In this document: one piece after another, positions 11,481-37,449 of the stretch
Position numbering within the stretch: position 1 is the stretch's first letter
Layout of the letters: each line of letters opens with the position of its first letter
Assembly (NCBI GenBank): GCA_003222895.1
Contig: QHXI01000086.1
Coordinates: 16,967-58,672 of the forward strand
DNA length: 41,706 nt
DNA from: Acidobacteriota bacterium
GTDB lineage: Bacteria; Acidobacteriota; Blastocatellia; Pyrinomonadales; Pyrinomonadaceae
Direction of reading: 5' to 3'
Translations under genes and position numbers: made by a program
Notes under the pieces: model-generated
Database searches by the model: none
The model's input: only the letters and a program-made list of their open reading frames with translations
What the model was told of the DNA's origin: nothing

Positions 11481-11574
11481 CGCGCCAATCGTAACATAGA
11501 AGCAGCGTCGCGTTCGTCGGCCTTTTGAGATCCGTGCCGCTCCCGTTAACCTATCACTCGTGCTTTCAAACATC

Positions 11575-12459
11575 ATGCATAAATACCGCAAAGAAACTTT
11601 TGTATTAATCACACTGGTCCTGGCTCTGAGTGGTGCGGGTTGTCGGCGAGGATCGAAAAACGAAAAGCGATTTCCAATCAAAGGCAAGGTCATCGCGGTG
11701 AACAAACTCGATCGCACGGCAACCATCTCGCACCAGGACATTCCCGGGTACATGCCGGGCATGACGATGGATTTCAAGATCAAGAACGACGGGGATCTCG
11801 AGATGATGAAACCGGGGGATCAAATCACCGGCACGCTGGTCGTCGACGGCCTTTCATCATGGGTTGAAGTCACCGCCATCACAGAAGGCGGCGCGCAGTT
11901 GACACCCACGACTGTGGTTCCTGGCGAACCGAAGCCCGGCGACGCTATTCCTGATTTTGCCTTGCTGAATCAGGATGGAAAAGCTATTCGCTTATCGCAA
12001 TACAAAGGCAAAGCGCTGGCGCTGACTTTCATCTACACCCGCTGCCCGCAACCGGACCAATGCACGTTGATGAGTCAGAACTTTGCGGCGATCGATCGCG
12101 AACTGCAAAACCTGCCGGATGTTTACGCGCAAACTCACTTGCTATCCATCACTTTCGATCCCGATTACGACACGCCGAAAGTTTTGCGCAGTTATGGCGC
12201 GTCGCACACGGAACGTTATTCCGATGAAACTTTTCAGCACTGGGAGTTCGCGACCGGAACAAAGGATGAGATCAAAGGAATGGCGCAGTTCTTTGGAATG
12301 CGTTATTACCACGACACCGAATCAGGCGACGAGCAAGTCATCCACTCGCTGCGCACCGCAGTCATCGACAAGAATGGGAAGCTCGTGAAGCTGTACCGGG
12401 GGAACGAGTGGAAGCCTGCGGAGATTGTTAACGATCTGAAGGCTTTGGCTGGCGCTTAG
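11575..12459 (+). CDS. CusF-like copper-binding domain fused to SCO1/SenC thioredoxin fold (lipoprotein)
   Basis: A 294-residue exported protein. ATG 11575 gives a lipoprotein signal ending LALSGAGC; an in-frame GTG at 11560 is the alternative. Residues about 35-105 match the CusF/copper-binding fold (GKVIAVNKLDRTATISHQDI, then PGYMPGMTMDF with the Met-rich site). Residues about 125-290 are an SCO1/SenC domain with FIYTRCPQPDQC, where the two cysteines are separated by five residues instead of the CxxxC of mitochondrial SCO1. The ligand histidine is in VIHSLRTAVID. SCO proteins deliver copper to, or reduce, the CuA site of cytochrome oxidase; the CusF part suggests periplasmic copper capture before transfer. 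No oxidase genes are nearby. It stands alone on the plus strand. Confidence 0.88.
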   Translation: MHKYRKETFVLITLVLALSGAGCRRGSKNEKRFPIKGKVIAVNKLDRTATISHQDIPGYMPGMTMDFKIKNDGDLEMMKPGDQITGTLVVDGLSSWVEVTAITEGGAQLTPTTVVPGEPKPGDAIPDFALLNQDGKAIRLSQYKGKALALTFIYTRCPQPDQCTLMSQNFAAIDRELQNLPDVYAQTHLLSITFDPDYDTPKVLRSYGASHTERYSDETFQHWEFATGTKDEIKGMAQFFGMRYYHDTESGDEQVIHSLRTAVIDKNGKLVKLYRGNEWKPAEIVNDLKALAGA

Positions 12460-12574
12460 ACCGCGTGCTAGACAAAAACCGTTGCGCTACCTCCGATTCT
12501 CTCGCAAATCCTTGGACCCAAAGCCGCCAATCAACCGAAACAGTTAAGAACGAGCCGAGGCGGGTGGCAACTCC

Positions 12575-12601
12575 GGAAGTTGGCCTTTTCGGCCAATTTC
12601 C
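12575..12601 (+). terminator. Hairpin downstream of the SCO gene
   Basis: GGAAGTTGGCC and GGCCAATTTCC flank a 5-base TTTTC loop, a stem with 10 of 11 pairs. It lies 115 bases past the SCO stop. It has no T-run after it, so it is a weak terminator candidate or simply part of the repeat-rich region. Confidence 0.4.
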
Positions 12602-12622
12602 TAAAGTCTAATGGGAATGGAT

Positions 12623-13042
12623 GATCCCCTCCAAGGTGGCGCTGATCCCCGCCGAGGCGGTGCTGATCCCCGCCCATGCCGGACTGATCCCCACCGAGGC
12701 GGTACTGATCTCCACCGAGGTGGCGCCGATCCCCGCCAAGGTGGTGCCGATCTCCACCAAGGTGGCGCTGATCCCCGCCAAGGTGGCGCTGATCCCCACC
12801 GAGGCGGTGCCGATCCCCACCGAAGCGGCGCTGATCCCCACCGAAGCGGCGCTGATCCCCGCCGAGGCGGTACTGACCCCCACCGAGGCGGCGCTGATCC
12901 CCGCCAAGGTGGTGCTGATCCCCGCCAAGGTGGCGCTGATCCCCGCCAAGGCGGTACTGATCCCCACCGAGGCGGTGCTGATCCCCGCCAAGGCGGCGCT
13001 GATCCCCACCGAGGTGGCGCTGATCCCCGCCAAGGCGGCAAT
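12623..13042. repeat. Twenty tandem copies of a 21-bp repeat
   Basis: Twenty consecutive 21-base units (first 12623-12643, last 13022-13042) with no insertion or deletion. Each starts GATCCCC (minor variants such as GATCTCC and GACCCC) and carries a near-palindromic core of the form CCRAGGYGG. Variation is almost all C/T or G/A and falls at a few fixed sites. Because 21 is a multiple of three and no unit contains a stop, at least four frames stay open: plus-strand heptapeptides GGADPRQ-like and LIPAKVA-like, and two proline/serine/glycine-rich frames on the minus strand. None has a convincing ribosome site. I treat it as a minisatellite. Protein coding is possible but unsupported. Confidence 0.93.
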
Positions 13043-13201
13043 CAGTCGCTCACCGTGGATTAATTATTGGATCGCCGCGTCGCCGCGCTGGATCAAGTTT
13101 CGAGGAAAAATTTTCGTGACGTTGGAAGTGTCCTCGCACACCCGAGGATTAGCCCTTCGATATGAGGGACTTGGTCCTCTCAGATCAAGGAGAACAATTA
13201 G

Positions 13202-13471
13202 TAATGCTCTGTTAGTGTGTTGCTGTTCTGCGTGAGTCCCGTAGGGACGAAAATATTTATAGCCACTGGTGCAACATAATTGAGCAAGCTCCGAAGGAGC
13301 GAAATATTATCGAATGACTCACATTTAGCTCCTACGGAGCTAGGGTCGTTGGATGGCTGTTGCTATAAACATCCGGCTCCTACAGAGCTAAACGATCGCG
13401 ACAGTTGTACGGCGTTCTTTCCATGCCACTTGGCAACACTGTTATCTCAGCAACACACTAACGGAGCACTA
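13202..13471. mobile_element. MITE-like element with 24-bp terminal inverted repeats
   Basis: The ends 13202-13225 and 13448-13471 are inverted repeats sharing the core GTTAGTGTGTTGCTG; 22 of 24 bases match. Both ends begin with TA, which would fit a TA target duplication as in IS630/mariner-like elements. Inside are four small palindromes of one family: GTCCCGTAGGGAC (13236-13248), GCTCCGAAGGAGC (13288-13300), GCTCCTACGGAGC (13328-13340) and GCTCCTACAGAGC (13376-13388). Each has an adjoining AT-rich tail (for example GAAAATATTTATAG); the first two point right and the last two point left. There is no transposase and no long reading frame. The rest of the 13043-13603 gap shows nothing I can name. 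Confidence 0.65.
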
Positions 13472-13603
13472 CCGAAAAATTAAACCAGTTGACCCTTCCA
13501 GATTGTACTGGGTCATTTATTCGCGTCGCGACAGCGCCCGCTACAGTCAGCACATACTGTTAGCGTTAATCCTTACACCGGATTGCTTGATTTCCATTAT
13601 CAC

Positions 13604-15706
13604 TCACCAAATCTGACAGCGCTTATCGGGCGGCCGCACCATCGCATCGCCTTCTTTGCACGCGTAGGCCGCGGCAAACTGCGGCATGTTCGATAGCGGT
13701 CCGTTGACACGAAACTTTGCCAGCGGATGCGGATCGGTGGCGTTTCTCAAGCGCGCTGCCTCGGGCCGAATGTTCTCCGCCCACACCTGCGCCCAGCCTA
13801 AAAAGAAACGCTGCTCAGGCGTGAACCCATTGATGTCCTTTGGCCGTGGCTTGCCCGCTAACGACTTTTGATAAGCGGCATATGCTACGGTCAATCCGCC
13901 CAAGTCAGCGACTGATTCGCCAACGACCAGTTGTCCTTTCTGATGCAGGCCAGGTTCGACTTCGAAAGAATCAAACTGTTGGACCACGCAATTCGTGCGG
14001 TCGGTAAACTTCTTGTAATCATCCGGCGACCACCACATCACCAGGTTGCCGTTTGCGTCATATCGCGCGCCGGAATCGTCAAAGCCGTGGGTCATCTCGT
14101 GGCCGATCACCGCGCCAATGCCACCGTAATTGAATGCCTCATCAGCCTTCGGATCGTAGAAAGGCGGTTGCAGGATGCCCGCCGGGAAAACGATCTCGTT
14201 GAATTGCGGATTGTAGTAGGCGTTGACGGTCGGCGGCGACATTCCCCACTCAGTCCTATCGACGGGCTTGCCGATCTTGCCGAGGTTTCGTCTGAATTCA
14301 AACTCACCGGCTGAAACAAAATTGTTGTAGTAAGCACCGCGACTAATCTGAAGCGCTTCATAGTCCCGCCACTTATCCGGATAGCCAATCTTGCGATTGT
14401 AAGCCTCGAGTTTCGCGATCGCTTTCTGACGCGTGTCGTTGCTCATCCAATTGAGGGTCGTCAGATCATCCTTCAGGGCTGTGACTAGATTCGCAACCAT
14501 TTCGCGCGCTCGCGCCTTGGCTTGAGGCGTGAACGTCTTGGCGACGTAGATCTGGCCCAGCGCTTCACCCAACGCGCGATCCGTGCTGGCGACGCAACGC
14601 TTCCAGCGCGGCAACATCTCGGTCGTGCCTTGCAGATACTTGCCGTTGAAGTTAAAGCTCTCTTGCACGAACTTCGACGAAAGTGTATTCGAAGCGGCAT
14701 TCACCAAGTGCCAGCGCAGATAAACTTTCCAGTCAGCGATCGGCGTGTCTTTCAGGATTTTGTCAGCGGCTTTGAAGAAATCGGGCTGGCCAACGTTAAC
14801 CTTTGCTATCTCGGGCAAACCGATATTGCGGAAGTAGCGGCCCCAATCAAAATCCGGAGTCATCTGCAGCAACATGATCTTGGTCATCGGGTGATAGTTT
14901 GCTTCCGGATTGCGTCGCTGAATTCGTGTCGAAGAGTTCTCAGCGAGCTTCGTCTCGATTTTCATTACCGTATTCGATTCGGCTGCGGCTTCTTGAGGAG
15001 TATCGCCCATCAACTCGAACGTGCGCGCGACGTGTTTTGAATACTCGTCGCGGGTGGCCTTGTTCTTGGCTTCATCGCTCGCGTAGTAATCGCGATCCGG
15101 CAATCCCAATCCACCTTGCACAAGCTGCGCGATAATTTGACTCGAATCTTTCGCGTCCTGATTCGCGCCAAAACCAAAGACCGCGGGAATGCGATGAGCA
15201 TGGAGACTCGCGATTTCATCTTCGAGGCTCAACAGATCGGAAATGCTCGCAATCCGCTGAAGCTCGGACTCGAGCGGCTTAATTCCCTCGGCTTCGATCT
15301 TCTGCTCATCCATGCACGATCCATAAAAGTCGGCGATCTTCTGTTCGTTGCCGGGCGCCAGGGTTTTCTTATTCAGAAGACCTTCGAGAATGTCATGCAG
15401 CACGCTGATGTTCTGTTCGTCGAGCTGCGTAAACCGGCCCCAAACCGAATAGGCCCCCGGAACCGGGTTCTTATCCATCCAGCCGCCGTTAGCGAAACGA
15501 TTGAAGTCCTGGCAGGCGCTCGCGTTTCGATCGAGGTTCGAAAAATCGAAACCGGCGACGACGGAATTTTGCGGCTTGTCGGATATTTCGAATGTCAATG
15601 ACGAGTCTGTTGGCAACGCAGCCGACGCCTGACGAGTGCGAAACACTGAAGTGGTCAAAAGTGATATCAGACAGAGCAACAGCACACAGCGATAGAATGG
15701 ATTCAT
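13604..15706 (-). CDS. M13 family zinc metallopeptidase (neprilysin/PepO-like)
   Basis: An exported endopeptidase of about 700 residues that cleaves oligopeptides. I chose ATG 15706 because TGGAGG lies eight bases before it; an in-frame GTG at 15721 overlaps that site. An N-terminal signal peptide (LLLCLISLL core) precedes the M13 N-domain. The catalytic domain has VNAYYNP (substrate binding), HEMTH at about residues 536-540 (two zinc ligands and the catalytic Glu) and ESVAD at about 597-601 (third ligand plus the stabilising Asp). The C-terminal RVNGPLSN and final CQIW are typical of the family, so it is full length. It stands between the repeat region and a coiled-coil gene and is probably its own transcript. 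Confidence 0.95.
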   Translation of the reverse strand: MNPFYRCVLLLCLISLLTTSVFRTRQASAALPTDSSLTFEISDKPQNSVVAGFDFSNLDRNASACQDFNRFANGGWMDKNPVPGAYSVWGRFTQLDEQNISVLHDILEGLLNKKTLAPGNEQKIADFYGSCMDEQKIEAEGIKPLESELQRIASISDLLSLEDEIASLHAHRIPAVFGFGANQDAKDSSQIIAQLVQGGLGLPDRDYYASDEAKNKATRDEYSKHVARTFELMGDTPQEAAAESNTVMKIETKLAENSSTRIQRRNPEANYHPMTKIMLLQMTPDFDWGRYFRNIGLPEIAKVNVGQPDFFKAADKILKDTPIADWKVYLRWHLVNAASNTLSSKFVQESFNFNGKYLQGTTEMLPRWKRCVASTDRALGEALGQIYVAKTFTPQAKARAREMVANLVTALKDDLTTLNWMSNDTRQKAIAKLEAYNRKIGYPDKWRDYEALQISRGAYYNNFVSAGEFEFRRNLGKIGKPVDRTEWGMSPPTVNAYYNPQFNEIVFPAGILQPPFYDPKADEAFNYGGIGAVIGHEMTHGFDDSGARYDANGNLVMWWSPDDYKKFTDRTNCVVQQFDSFEVEPGLHQKGQLVVGESVADLGGLTVAYAAYQKSLAGKPRPKDINGFTPEQRFFLGWAQVWAENIRPEAARLRNATDPHPLAKFRVNGPLSNMPQFAAAYACKEGDAMVRPPDKRCQIW

Positions 15707-15838
15707 GGCAGAAACCTCCACAGAAAAGATTTATCAATTCGCTTTTCGAGGGGACGTGGGAATGTTAGGACTTGAGGAGCGAAAAGGCAAAAAGCGGCTC
15801 CGGTTGGGACGAGGCAGACTCAATTGCTCGATCAGAGG

Positions 15839-35553: not shown

Positions 35554-37449
35554 ATGCACACCTTTCAAGACCTGCTCGATTCCGACCGCTCATACATCTT
35601 TGATGGCGCGATGGGCACGATGCTTTATTCAAAGGGCATCTATATCAATCGATCTTACGACGAGCTGAACCTCGTCGCCGCCGACCTGGTGCGCGAAGTG
35701 CACTCGGAATACGTGCGCGCAGGCGCCGACATTATTGAGACAAACACCTTCGGCGCGAACGTAAACAAGCTTCAGCCGTACGGTCTGGAAGCGAGCGCCC
35801 GCGAAATCAATATCAAAGCCGCGCAGATTGCGCGCGAAGCTGCCGGAAATCGAGCCCTGGTCGCCGGCGCGGTCGGCCCGCTCGGGTTGCGTATTGAGCC
35901 GTATGGTCCAACTTCATTCGACGAGGCGAAGCAACTGTTCGCCGATCAAGTCTCGGCTTTGCTCGAAGGCGGCGTCGATCTCTTCGTGCTCGAAACTTTC
36001 TCGGACATTTCGGAATTGCATCATGCGATCCGCGCGGTGCGCGAGCTTTGCGATTTGCCAATCGTTGCGCAAGTCACGATTCAGATTGACGGCAACACTT
36101 CCTTCGGGACGACCGCAGAAGTTTTCACGACGCAGCTCGACGAGTGGGGCGCCGATGTGATTGGACTGAACTGCGGTGTTGGCCCAGCGATTGTTCTGAA
36201 CTCAATCGAGAAGATGCGCACGCTCACAAGTCGCAAGCTGTCCGCGCAACCAAACGCAGGTTTGCCGCGCGATGTTGGCGGCCGGCAAATTTACATGTGC
36301 TCGCCGGAATACATGGCCGAATACTCGCGTCGCATTATTCAAGCGGGCGCGAAGTTCGTTGGCGGTTGCTGCGGCACAACGCCGGCGCATATTAAAATGA
36401 TCGCCGACGCGATTCGTCAGTTCCACCCGCGCACGCAACAAGTCTCGCCCTCAACAGTTGCGAAAATTAGTCTGCACGAATTGAAGCCACCGGATGTTAC
36501 GGTCGTGCCCGCTGAAGAAAGATCGAACTGGTCTCGGAAGATCGCAACAGGCGAATTCGTTACTACAGTCGAAGTCCTGCCGCCGAAAGGCTGCAATCCG
36601 TGGAAGACACTTGACTCGATTCGGCTGTTGAAAGATGCAGGCGTCGATGGCGTGAACATTCCCGATGGACCGCGCGCGCAAACGCGCATGGGCGCAATGG
36701 CGACGGCGTTAATGGTGCAGAAAGAAATCGGCATGGAAGCCGTGCTGCACTACTGCTGTCGCGATCGAAATCTGCTGGGCATGATGTCTGATCTGCTTGG
36801 CGCTGCGGCGATGGGGCTGCGAAATGTCCTTTTGATTACGGGCGACCCGCCGAAGATGGGCCCTTATCCGGATGCGACGGCCGTGTTCGACATCGACGCG
36901 ATTGGTTTGACGAACATGGTCAACAAACTGAATCACGGCCTGGACATCGGCGACAATCCGATCGGCGAGCCAACCGCCTTTTCGATCGGCGTCGGTGTAA
37001 ATCCCGGCGCGGTCAACATGGAAGAAGAGCTGCGACGCTTCGAATGGAAGATAGAAGCCGGCGCTGAATACGCGATCACTCAACCAGTGTTCGACACACA
37101 ACAGCTTCGCGATTTTCTCAAGCGCATCGAGTCGTTTCGCATTCCGATCGTCGCGGGCATCTGGCCGCTTGTTTCTTTCCGCAATGCCGAGTTCCTGCAC
37201 AACGAAGTTCCCGGCGTGCAGGTCACGCCTGAAATCATGGAGCGCATGCGCAACGCATCGGCGATTAGCAAAGAAGCCGGACGCGACGAAGGCTTAAAGA
37301 TTGGCCGCGAGTCCCTGGTCGAAGTTCGCGATCTAATTCAAGGCGTGCAAGTATCAGCGCCGTTCGGAAATGTGAAGTACGCGCTGGAAGTATTCAGTGT
37401 GCTGCCGGAGCTCGCGCAGAAAGAAGCCGCCGCCCCTGGCGTTTCGTAA
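35554..37449 (+). CDS. Bifunctional homocysteine S-methyltransferase/methylenetetrahydrofolate reductase
   Basis: A 631-residue fusion. Residues about 1-290 are a homocysteine methyltransferase domain (GAMGTMLYSKG near the start, ETNTFGANVNKL, GLNCGVGP, and the zinc ligands in GGCCGTTPAHI). Residues about 325-620 are a MTHFR barrel (TTVEVLPPKGCNPW, GVDGVNIPDGPRAQTRM, LLITGDPPKMGPYP, and EYAITQPVFD). It would reduce methylene-THF and transfer the methyl group to homocysteine without the cobalamin domain of MetH; YitJ of Bacillus has a similar layout. ATG 35554. Control by the upstream SAM-II-like element makes biological sense. Both halves look complete. Confidence 0.94.
   Translation: MHTFQDLLDSDRSYIFDGAMGTMLYSKGIYINRSYDELNLVAADLVREVHSEYVRAGADIIETNTFGANVNKLQPYGLEASAREINIKAAQIAREAAGNRALVAGAVGPLGLRIEPYGPTSFDEAKQLFADQVSALLEGGVDLFVLETFSDISELHHAIRAVRELCDLPIVAQVTIQIDGNTSFGTTAEVFTTQLDEWGADVIGLNCGVGPAIVLNSIEKMRTLTSRKLSAQPNAGLPRDVGGRQIYMCSPEYMAEYSRRIIQAGAKFVGGCCGTTPAHIKMIADAIRQFHPRTQQVSPSTVAKISLHELKPPDVTVVPAEERSNWSRKIATGEFVTTVEVLPPKGCNPWKTLDSIRLLKDAGVDGVNIPDGPRAQTRMGAMATALMVQKEIGMEAVLHYCCRDRNLLGMMSDLLGAAAMGLRNVLLITGDPPKMGPYPDATAVFDIDAIGLTNMVNKLNHGLDIGDNPIGEPTAFSIGVGVNPGAVNMEEELRRFEWKIEAGAEYAITQPVFDTQQLRDFLKRIESFRIPIVAGIWPLVSFRNAEFLHNEVPGVQVTPEIMERMRNASAISKEAGRDEGLKIGRESLVEVRDLIQGVQVSAPFGNVKYALEVFSVLPELAQKEAAAPGVS

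Follow-up and report, generated by a model that had tools for sequence, protein, structure and literature searches.

The window analysed here, a 41,706 nt stretch of a contig from a draft Acidobacteriota genome (4.77 Mb in 167 contigs), contains a tandem array of twenty 21 bp units (12623-13042, plus strand; consensus GATCCCCGCCGAGGCGGCGCT). The array is intergenic, lying between two genes identified through Pfam: a plus strand gene encoding CusF and SCO1/SenC domains upstream (11560-12459), and a minus strand gene for an M13 peptidase downstream (13604-15721). It is immediately preceded by a 'leader' (12522-12622, plus strand), beginning AGCCGCCAATCAACCG, which recurs at one other site in the same genome. 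The element formed by the leader and array begins 62 bp past the stop codon of the SCO1/SenC gene, which it follows in the same orientation. Several other features of the window are of note. To the right of the array is a dispersed repeat of approximately 0.24 kb (~13235-13473), recognised through sequence matches within the same genome. These number 36 in total, including the query itself, and comprise three further near full-length copies (82-88% identity) and many partial ones; a pair of 25 bp inverted arms (13201-13225 and 13448-13472) overlaps this repeat. Elsewhere, a SAM_alpha riboswitch (RF00521; 35418-35493) is found just 5' of a fused homocysteine S-methyltransferase / MTHFR gene (35554-37449).

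Analysis with Tandem Repeats Finder, together with a list of the individual units, confirmed the exact coordinates, the unit number and the unbroken 21 bp register reported in the initial annotation. The twenty units are contiguous, with 0% indels and 83% matches, and a pattern representing two successive units was found 11 times in the window and in none of 100 shuffled versions of it. Most of the units differ from one another: ten columns are invariant across all 20, while changes are concentrated in seven others (columns 8, 11, 13, 15, 18, 19 and 21). As had also been observed previously, these differences are mostly transitions, which make up 47 of the 53 departures from the consensus. Ten arrays were available for comparison, from which the window array itself and L069, consisting of two units, were left out; in the eight others, including the second array of the same genome (L002), the transition share ranged only from 11/36 to 33/45, and hence the bias of the window array is the strongest. 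Transitions that destroy CpG dinucleotides account for 39 of the 53 departures, an excess absent from the other 21 bp arrays examined. Because these other arrays lack such an excess, and because CpG is over-represented (1.48) in the window outside of the array, the decay of 5-methylcytosine can be regarded only as a suggestive source of these changes. A better score at a period of 42 bp raised the possibility of a higher-order unit of this length, which was rejected as similarity at a lag of two units is not elevated (p = 0.42). Sites 8 and 11 are anti-correlated in the window array (p = 0.023, uncorrected, across 21 site pairs), and in the L002 array unit similarity is raised at a lag of three (p = 0.005, one of 12 lag tests). 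A CRISPR array was also rejected, the units being contiguous and without unique spacers between the repeats.

The second array, L002, is found on contig C42 and consists of 18 units, including a degenerate first unit, again with 0% indels; together with the window array, it represents the only sequence family of 21 bp arrays known in this genome. Its leader (positions 1414-1512 in the numbering of that stretch) is 93% identical to that in the window over 100 bp, whereas the arrays themselves are 83% identical between the two copies. RNA folding of the leader predicts a stem-loop with an 11 bp stem and a 5 nt loop (12575-12601, plus strand), within which the single difference found at L002 generates a wobble pair, such that the stem is kept; taken over its full length, the leader does not fold clearly more stably than shuffled sequences (z scores of -0.98 and -1.64). 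No further copies of the leader were found in this genome, with other matches being only 14-27 bp in length and having E values of at least 0.44. To the right, the alignment of the two copies extends through the last unit and approximately 13 bp beyond it (13022-13055, plus strand), past which a comparison of the tails detected no convincing similarity. At L002, this shared right edge is followed by ~120 bp, reaching as far as the right half of an interrupted palindrome, that are missing from the window copy, and the two copies thus do not define where the element ends on this side.

Both sites lack the array in the related genomes that could be compared. The SCO1 and M13 peptidase genes are separated by 1144 bp in the genome containing the window, but by only ~0.1 kb in G005, in which the M13 peptidase is 88% identical to that in the window, and ~0.35 kb in G001. 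This comparison rests on two genomes because the other stretches available from the same genus either do not include both genes or, in the case of G006, have no match to the M13 peptidase. For the L002 site, five genomes of the same genus could be compared: the inserted stretch was unmatched in all of them, none had a 21 bp array of more than two copies at this position, and the spacing was ~0.5-0.6 kb shorter in four of the five. Measured between the same matching stretches, the site spans 752 bp in the genome carrying L002, relative to ~167 bp in G005 and ~200 bp in G004 (the latter obtained by subtraction from the match list), and it is longer than its counterparts in G002 and G006 by ~0.6 kb and ~0.5 kb, respectively. 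In the fifth genome, G001, the distance between the stretches that match in this pair is 1205 bp, relative to 1177 bp in the genome with the insertion; as the latter is not the longer of the two, G001 must carry other DNA at this point.

The insertion at L002 interrupts a REP-like palindrome, the left half and loop of which end at position 1413 and the right half of which starts at position 2023, with 609 bp in between. The same palindrome is intact, with three or fewer mismatches, at seven other places in the genome, and the three of these that were viewed have flanking GTCCGC/GCGGAC hairpins, as does L002. The REP-like element, as seen at L173, L174 and L110, is composed of three hairpins: GTCCGC..GCGGAC, CCCAGCGATTTATCGCTGGG and a second GTCCGC..GCGGAC. 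The window copy, as judged by eye, is not located at such a palindrome. Within the L002 insert, nothing was recognised as a transposase gene. An IS110 element was considered as a carrier and rejected: there is one IS110 transposase match in the genome, and only a 14 bp match (E = 0.72) to the insert. Additionally, the nicotinamidase-like gene preceding L002 apparently lacks ~90 bp near its 3' end (at about 1305-1360) relative to L088 and L090, again judged by eye.

At an E value threshold of 1e-6, the sequence of the leader and array was detected in just one of 162 genomes of the class. Weak matches (E value of 0.01 or below) were found in 11 other genomes among the 119 belonging to the family, none of which was surrounded by a 21 bp array identifiable with Tandem Repeats Finder, and the same program found no matching array at any of 12 single pattern matches to other taxa in the genome_contigs set. 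Viral contigs contained no matches to the leader pattern and three single matches to the array pattern, and plasmids and phages had no match to the patterns for the leader and array. Searching the 119 genomes for three TGATC motifs at 21 bp spacing revealed other 21 bp arrays of unrelated sequence. Several of the unrelated arrays in relatives carry indels, and therefore a strict register is not a rule.

The abundance of such arrays was gauged in stretches sampled from five genomes, with clusters assigned to their smallest period; small pieces from elsewhere, many of which were chosen for their known arrays, were not counted. In 391 kb of G035 there were 16 clusters with a period of 21 bp, ten of which had at least 3.5 copies, alongside one, two and three clusters with periods of 18, 24 and 27 bp, of which none, none and one, respectively, had at least 3.5 copies. 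The G035 contigs had been chosen via pattern hits, and eight of the ten arrays were not those hit by the pattern. These arrays are unrelated to that in the window and to one another, with a single weak exception (33 bp, E = 4e-5). In a 400 kb sample of the window's own genome, including the contig already known to harbour L002, L002 was the only cluster with a period of 21 bp, while the samples of G001 (385 kb), G009 (400 kb) and G099 (400 kb) contained one, three and four such clusters, respectively, none of which reached 3.5 copies; one G009 cluster filed under a period of 14 bp (L170) also scores at 21 bp. Across the window plus 400 kb of its own genome there were only two arrays of at least 3.5 copies, and the samples of G001, G009 and G099 had none; the preference for 21 bp is therefore strong in G035 and not shown for the genome studied here.

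One interpretation offered for the array was that it encodes a selected, repetitive heptapeptide protein, either DPRRGGA-like in the frame starting at 12611 or IPAEAAL-like in that starting at 12621. It is indeed open in several frames, as originally described, with four ORFs of 100 aa or more overlapping it and five of the six frames open from stop to stop; furthermore, the ATG at 12611 is within the conserved leader and is in frame with the units at L002 as well. The Gly-Gly pair said to be kept in nearly all units is present in 17 of the 20. However, the five open frames carry little weight, because a frame that is free of stops in a 21 bp unit stays open at any copy number, and most close near the array: they end 2-193 nt past it, with eight of the ten ends no more than 25 nt away. 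The suggested check for a synonymous bias in each frame was performed by relocating the 15 distinct changes individually to equivalent sites picked at random, with the base and CpG context kept. Five of the 15 were synonymous in frame 12611, relative to 4.3 expected (p = 0.43), and three in frame 12621, relative to 5.8 expected (p = 0.97), with an excess in none of the six frames (best p = 0.30). No ribosome-binding sequence is evident by eye upstream of 12611, the array is more diverged than the leader between the two copies, and none of the class's 161 other genomes has a match. For none of the four ORFs did a Pfam match exceed a curated cut-off, the sole match listed being to a viral glycoprotein and falling below its threshold. 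Such a protein is consequently very unlikely, and from its sequence the array appears not to code for amino acid repeats. A role for the array as structured RNA or DNA is also quite unlikely, if less so; it would take the form of a string of hairpins that might, for instance, attenuate transcription or stabilise the 3' region of the SCO1 mRNA. The location of the element downstream of SCO1 in the same direction, and the retention of the leader stem in both copies, are consistent with such a role, and the RNA folds of the whole array are somewhat more stable than those of dinucleotide shuffles (z scores of -2.37 and -1.92 on the plus and minus strands, with 3 of 100 shuffles as good for each strand); this stability is the sole result favouring the hairpin reading. 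By contrast, the near-palindromic core, CCRAGGYGG, that had been ascribed to every unit is found in 17 of the 20, with units 3, 10 and 11 deviating, and as a feature it did not prove remarkable, since the 5 bp stem of the consensus unit lies within the range expected from composition by chance, with 39% of shuffled versions of the unit forming one at least as good. When 16 units from this genome and its relatives were compared with shuffles, the hairpin core was rejected as a selected feature (Fisher p = 0.11), with the p values of single-unit stems ranging from 0.009 (L074) up to 1.0. The central pair of sites 8 and 15 is GC in six of the window units, AC in six, GT in four, AT in three and TT in one, with no covariation detected in the form of compensating changes, and pairing within units is no better than in column shuffles (p = 0.84 on the plus strand and 0.67 on the minus strand). 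Nor does any Rfam family reach its gathering score over the array, and tandem GC-rich units would tend to pair with one another. Dyad symmetry across the whole unit, assessed in 17 arrays, is absent from the window array, clearest in L074 (p = 0.002) and weak in L116 and L057. The window itself is ordinary in these respects, supporting neither a gene nor a selected array of hairpins.

An alternative that is unlikely, albeit less so than either of these, is that the array provides a phased platform to which a DNA-bending or nucleoid protein binds. As 21 bp corresponds to two helical turns, every unit shows the same face of the DNA, and the binding of a protein that requires a constant unit size is one of the functions discussed for repeats of this type (PMC8161180). 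The exact 21 bp phase of both the window array and L002, the ten columns invariant in 20 units where seven take most of the changes, and the existence of other arrays in the family built from 21 bp units of unrelated sequence would each fit with such a platform. Nevertheless, the arrays of different genomes have no sequence in common, the indels in those of several relatives mean that an exact phase is not universal, the leader and array have no match in relatives, and whole-unit copying alone would also conserve the phase. That the copy number reflects an artefact of assembly is very improbable: tandem repeats are readily mis-assembled and this draft genome is in 167 contigs, but most of the units are distinct in sequence, and the leader occurs at two loci that lie on different contigs with different flanks.

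Most probably, the array is a non-coding 21 bp satellite that forms part of a small dispersed element of approximately 0.5 kb, comprised of the leader with its stem-loop, the array and the short right edge. Such an element would have been copied or moved as a unit, with repeats subsequently gained, lost and homogenised through slippage or unequal recombination; as this turnover would occur in whole-unit steps, the register would be kept while the leader and array diverged at different rates. The earlier proposal of a minisatellite homogenised by recombination is supported in its first part, in view of the intergenic location, the lower identity of the arrays than of the leaders and the likeness to known 20-21 nt repeats. 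Homogenisation was not directly seen, adjacent units in the window array being no more similar to one another than when their order was shuffled. Given the leader and the second insertion, a mobile origin is plausible, although, with only two copies, movement rests on two sites. A more specific possibility, which is conceivable but doubtful, is that this is a composite mobile element with the satellite as its cargo, in which the hairpin leader mobilises the array into REP-like palindromes and the 3' ends of genes, perhaps through a transposase acting in trans. If true, this would account for the way in which bacterial satellites of a single unit size become established at further places in a genome. 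As for what the repeats do, a function such as protein binding every two helical turns would be a guess.

Bacterial tandem repeats of a constant size, either 20-21 or 52 nt, have been described in Bacillus and many other groups; they are of unrelated sequence and generally do not code for protein, and the correspondence of 20-21 nt to two helical turns has led to discussion of roles in nucleoid binding or as small RNA (Subirana & Messeguer 2021, PMC8161180). The window array fits the 20-21 nt class, having a 21 bp unit, at least four units, a regular unit length (defined in that study as at least 60% of units being of one length), apparently no coding function and a sequence specific to one species among those searched (1/162 genomes), with unrelated 21 bp arrays present in related genomes. 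It differs in that its own genome contains few such arrays and in that the two present share a non-repeat leader, a feature not mentioned in the sections of that report drawn upon here. What is new is this shared leader and the second insertion. The parts of the satellite studies drawn upon here leave open both the function of these repeats and their route to new sites. Two copies that have a leader in common, each missing from its site in the relatives compared, provide a case in which spread can be separated from the growth of an array.

Transposition of non-coding satellites was described as rare in a 2019 survey (PMC6749651), which reported transposed families in Leptospira interrogans and Methanocella conradii. 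Similarly, one satellite is found here at two unrelated places in the genome, although in only two copies and accompanied by a unique leader, whereas the survey refers to families having long repeats. Among the matches listed in literature searches there was no report of a satellite whose copies share a leader, which is not proof of absence. Insertion sequences are known to target REP palindromes (Tobes & Pareja 2006, PMC1525189), and L002 likewise sits in a REP-like palindrome; the inserts in that report are insertion sequences, however, whereas that at L002 has no recognised transposase gene and there is no third copy of the leader.

G035 appears to be a rich genome in which to ask why a length of 21 bp is preferred. 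Heptanucleotide repeats, such as GATAGRA in Chloroflexus aurantiacus (PMC6749651), offer one parallel, in that, among short repeats, 7 bp arrays are the most common type in the G035 and G009 samples and 21 is three times seven, but the window unit has no internal 7 bp period visible by eye. The stretches of G035 (L113-L132) contain 75 clusters of 7 bp arrays and 16 of 21 bp arrays, mostly of unrelated sequence, in 391 kb. Longer periods are also found, with the 21 bp arrays L057 and L199 of G054, and L074 of G116, additionally scoring as a 63 bp higher-order unit.
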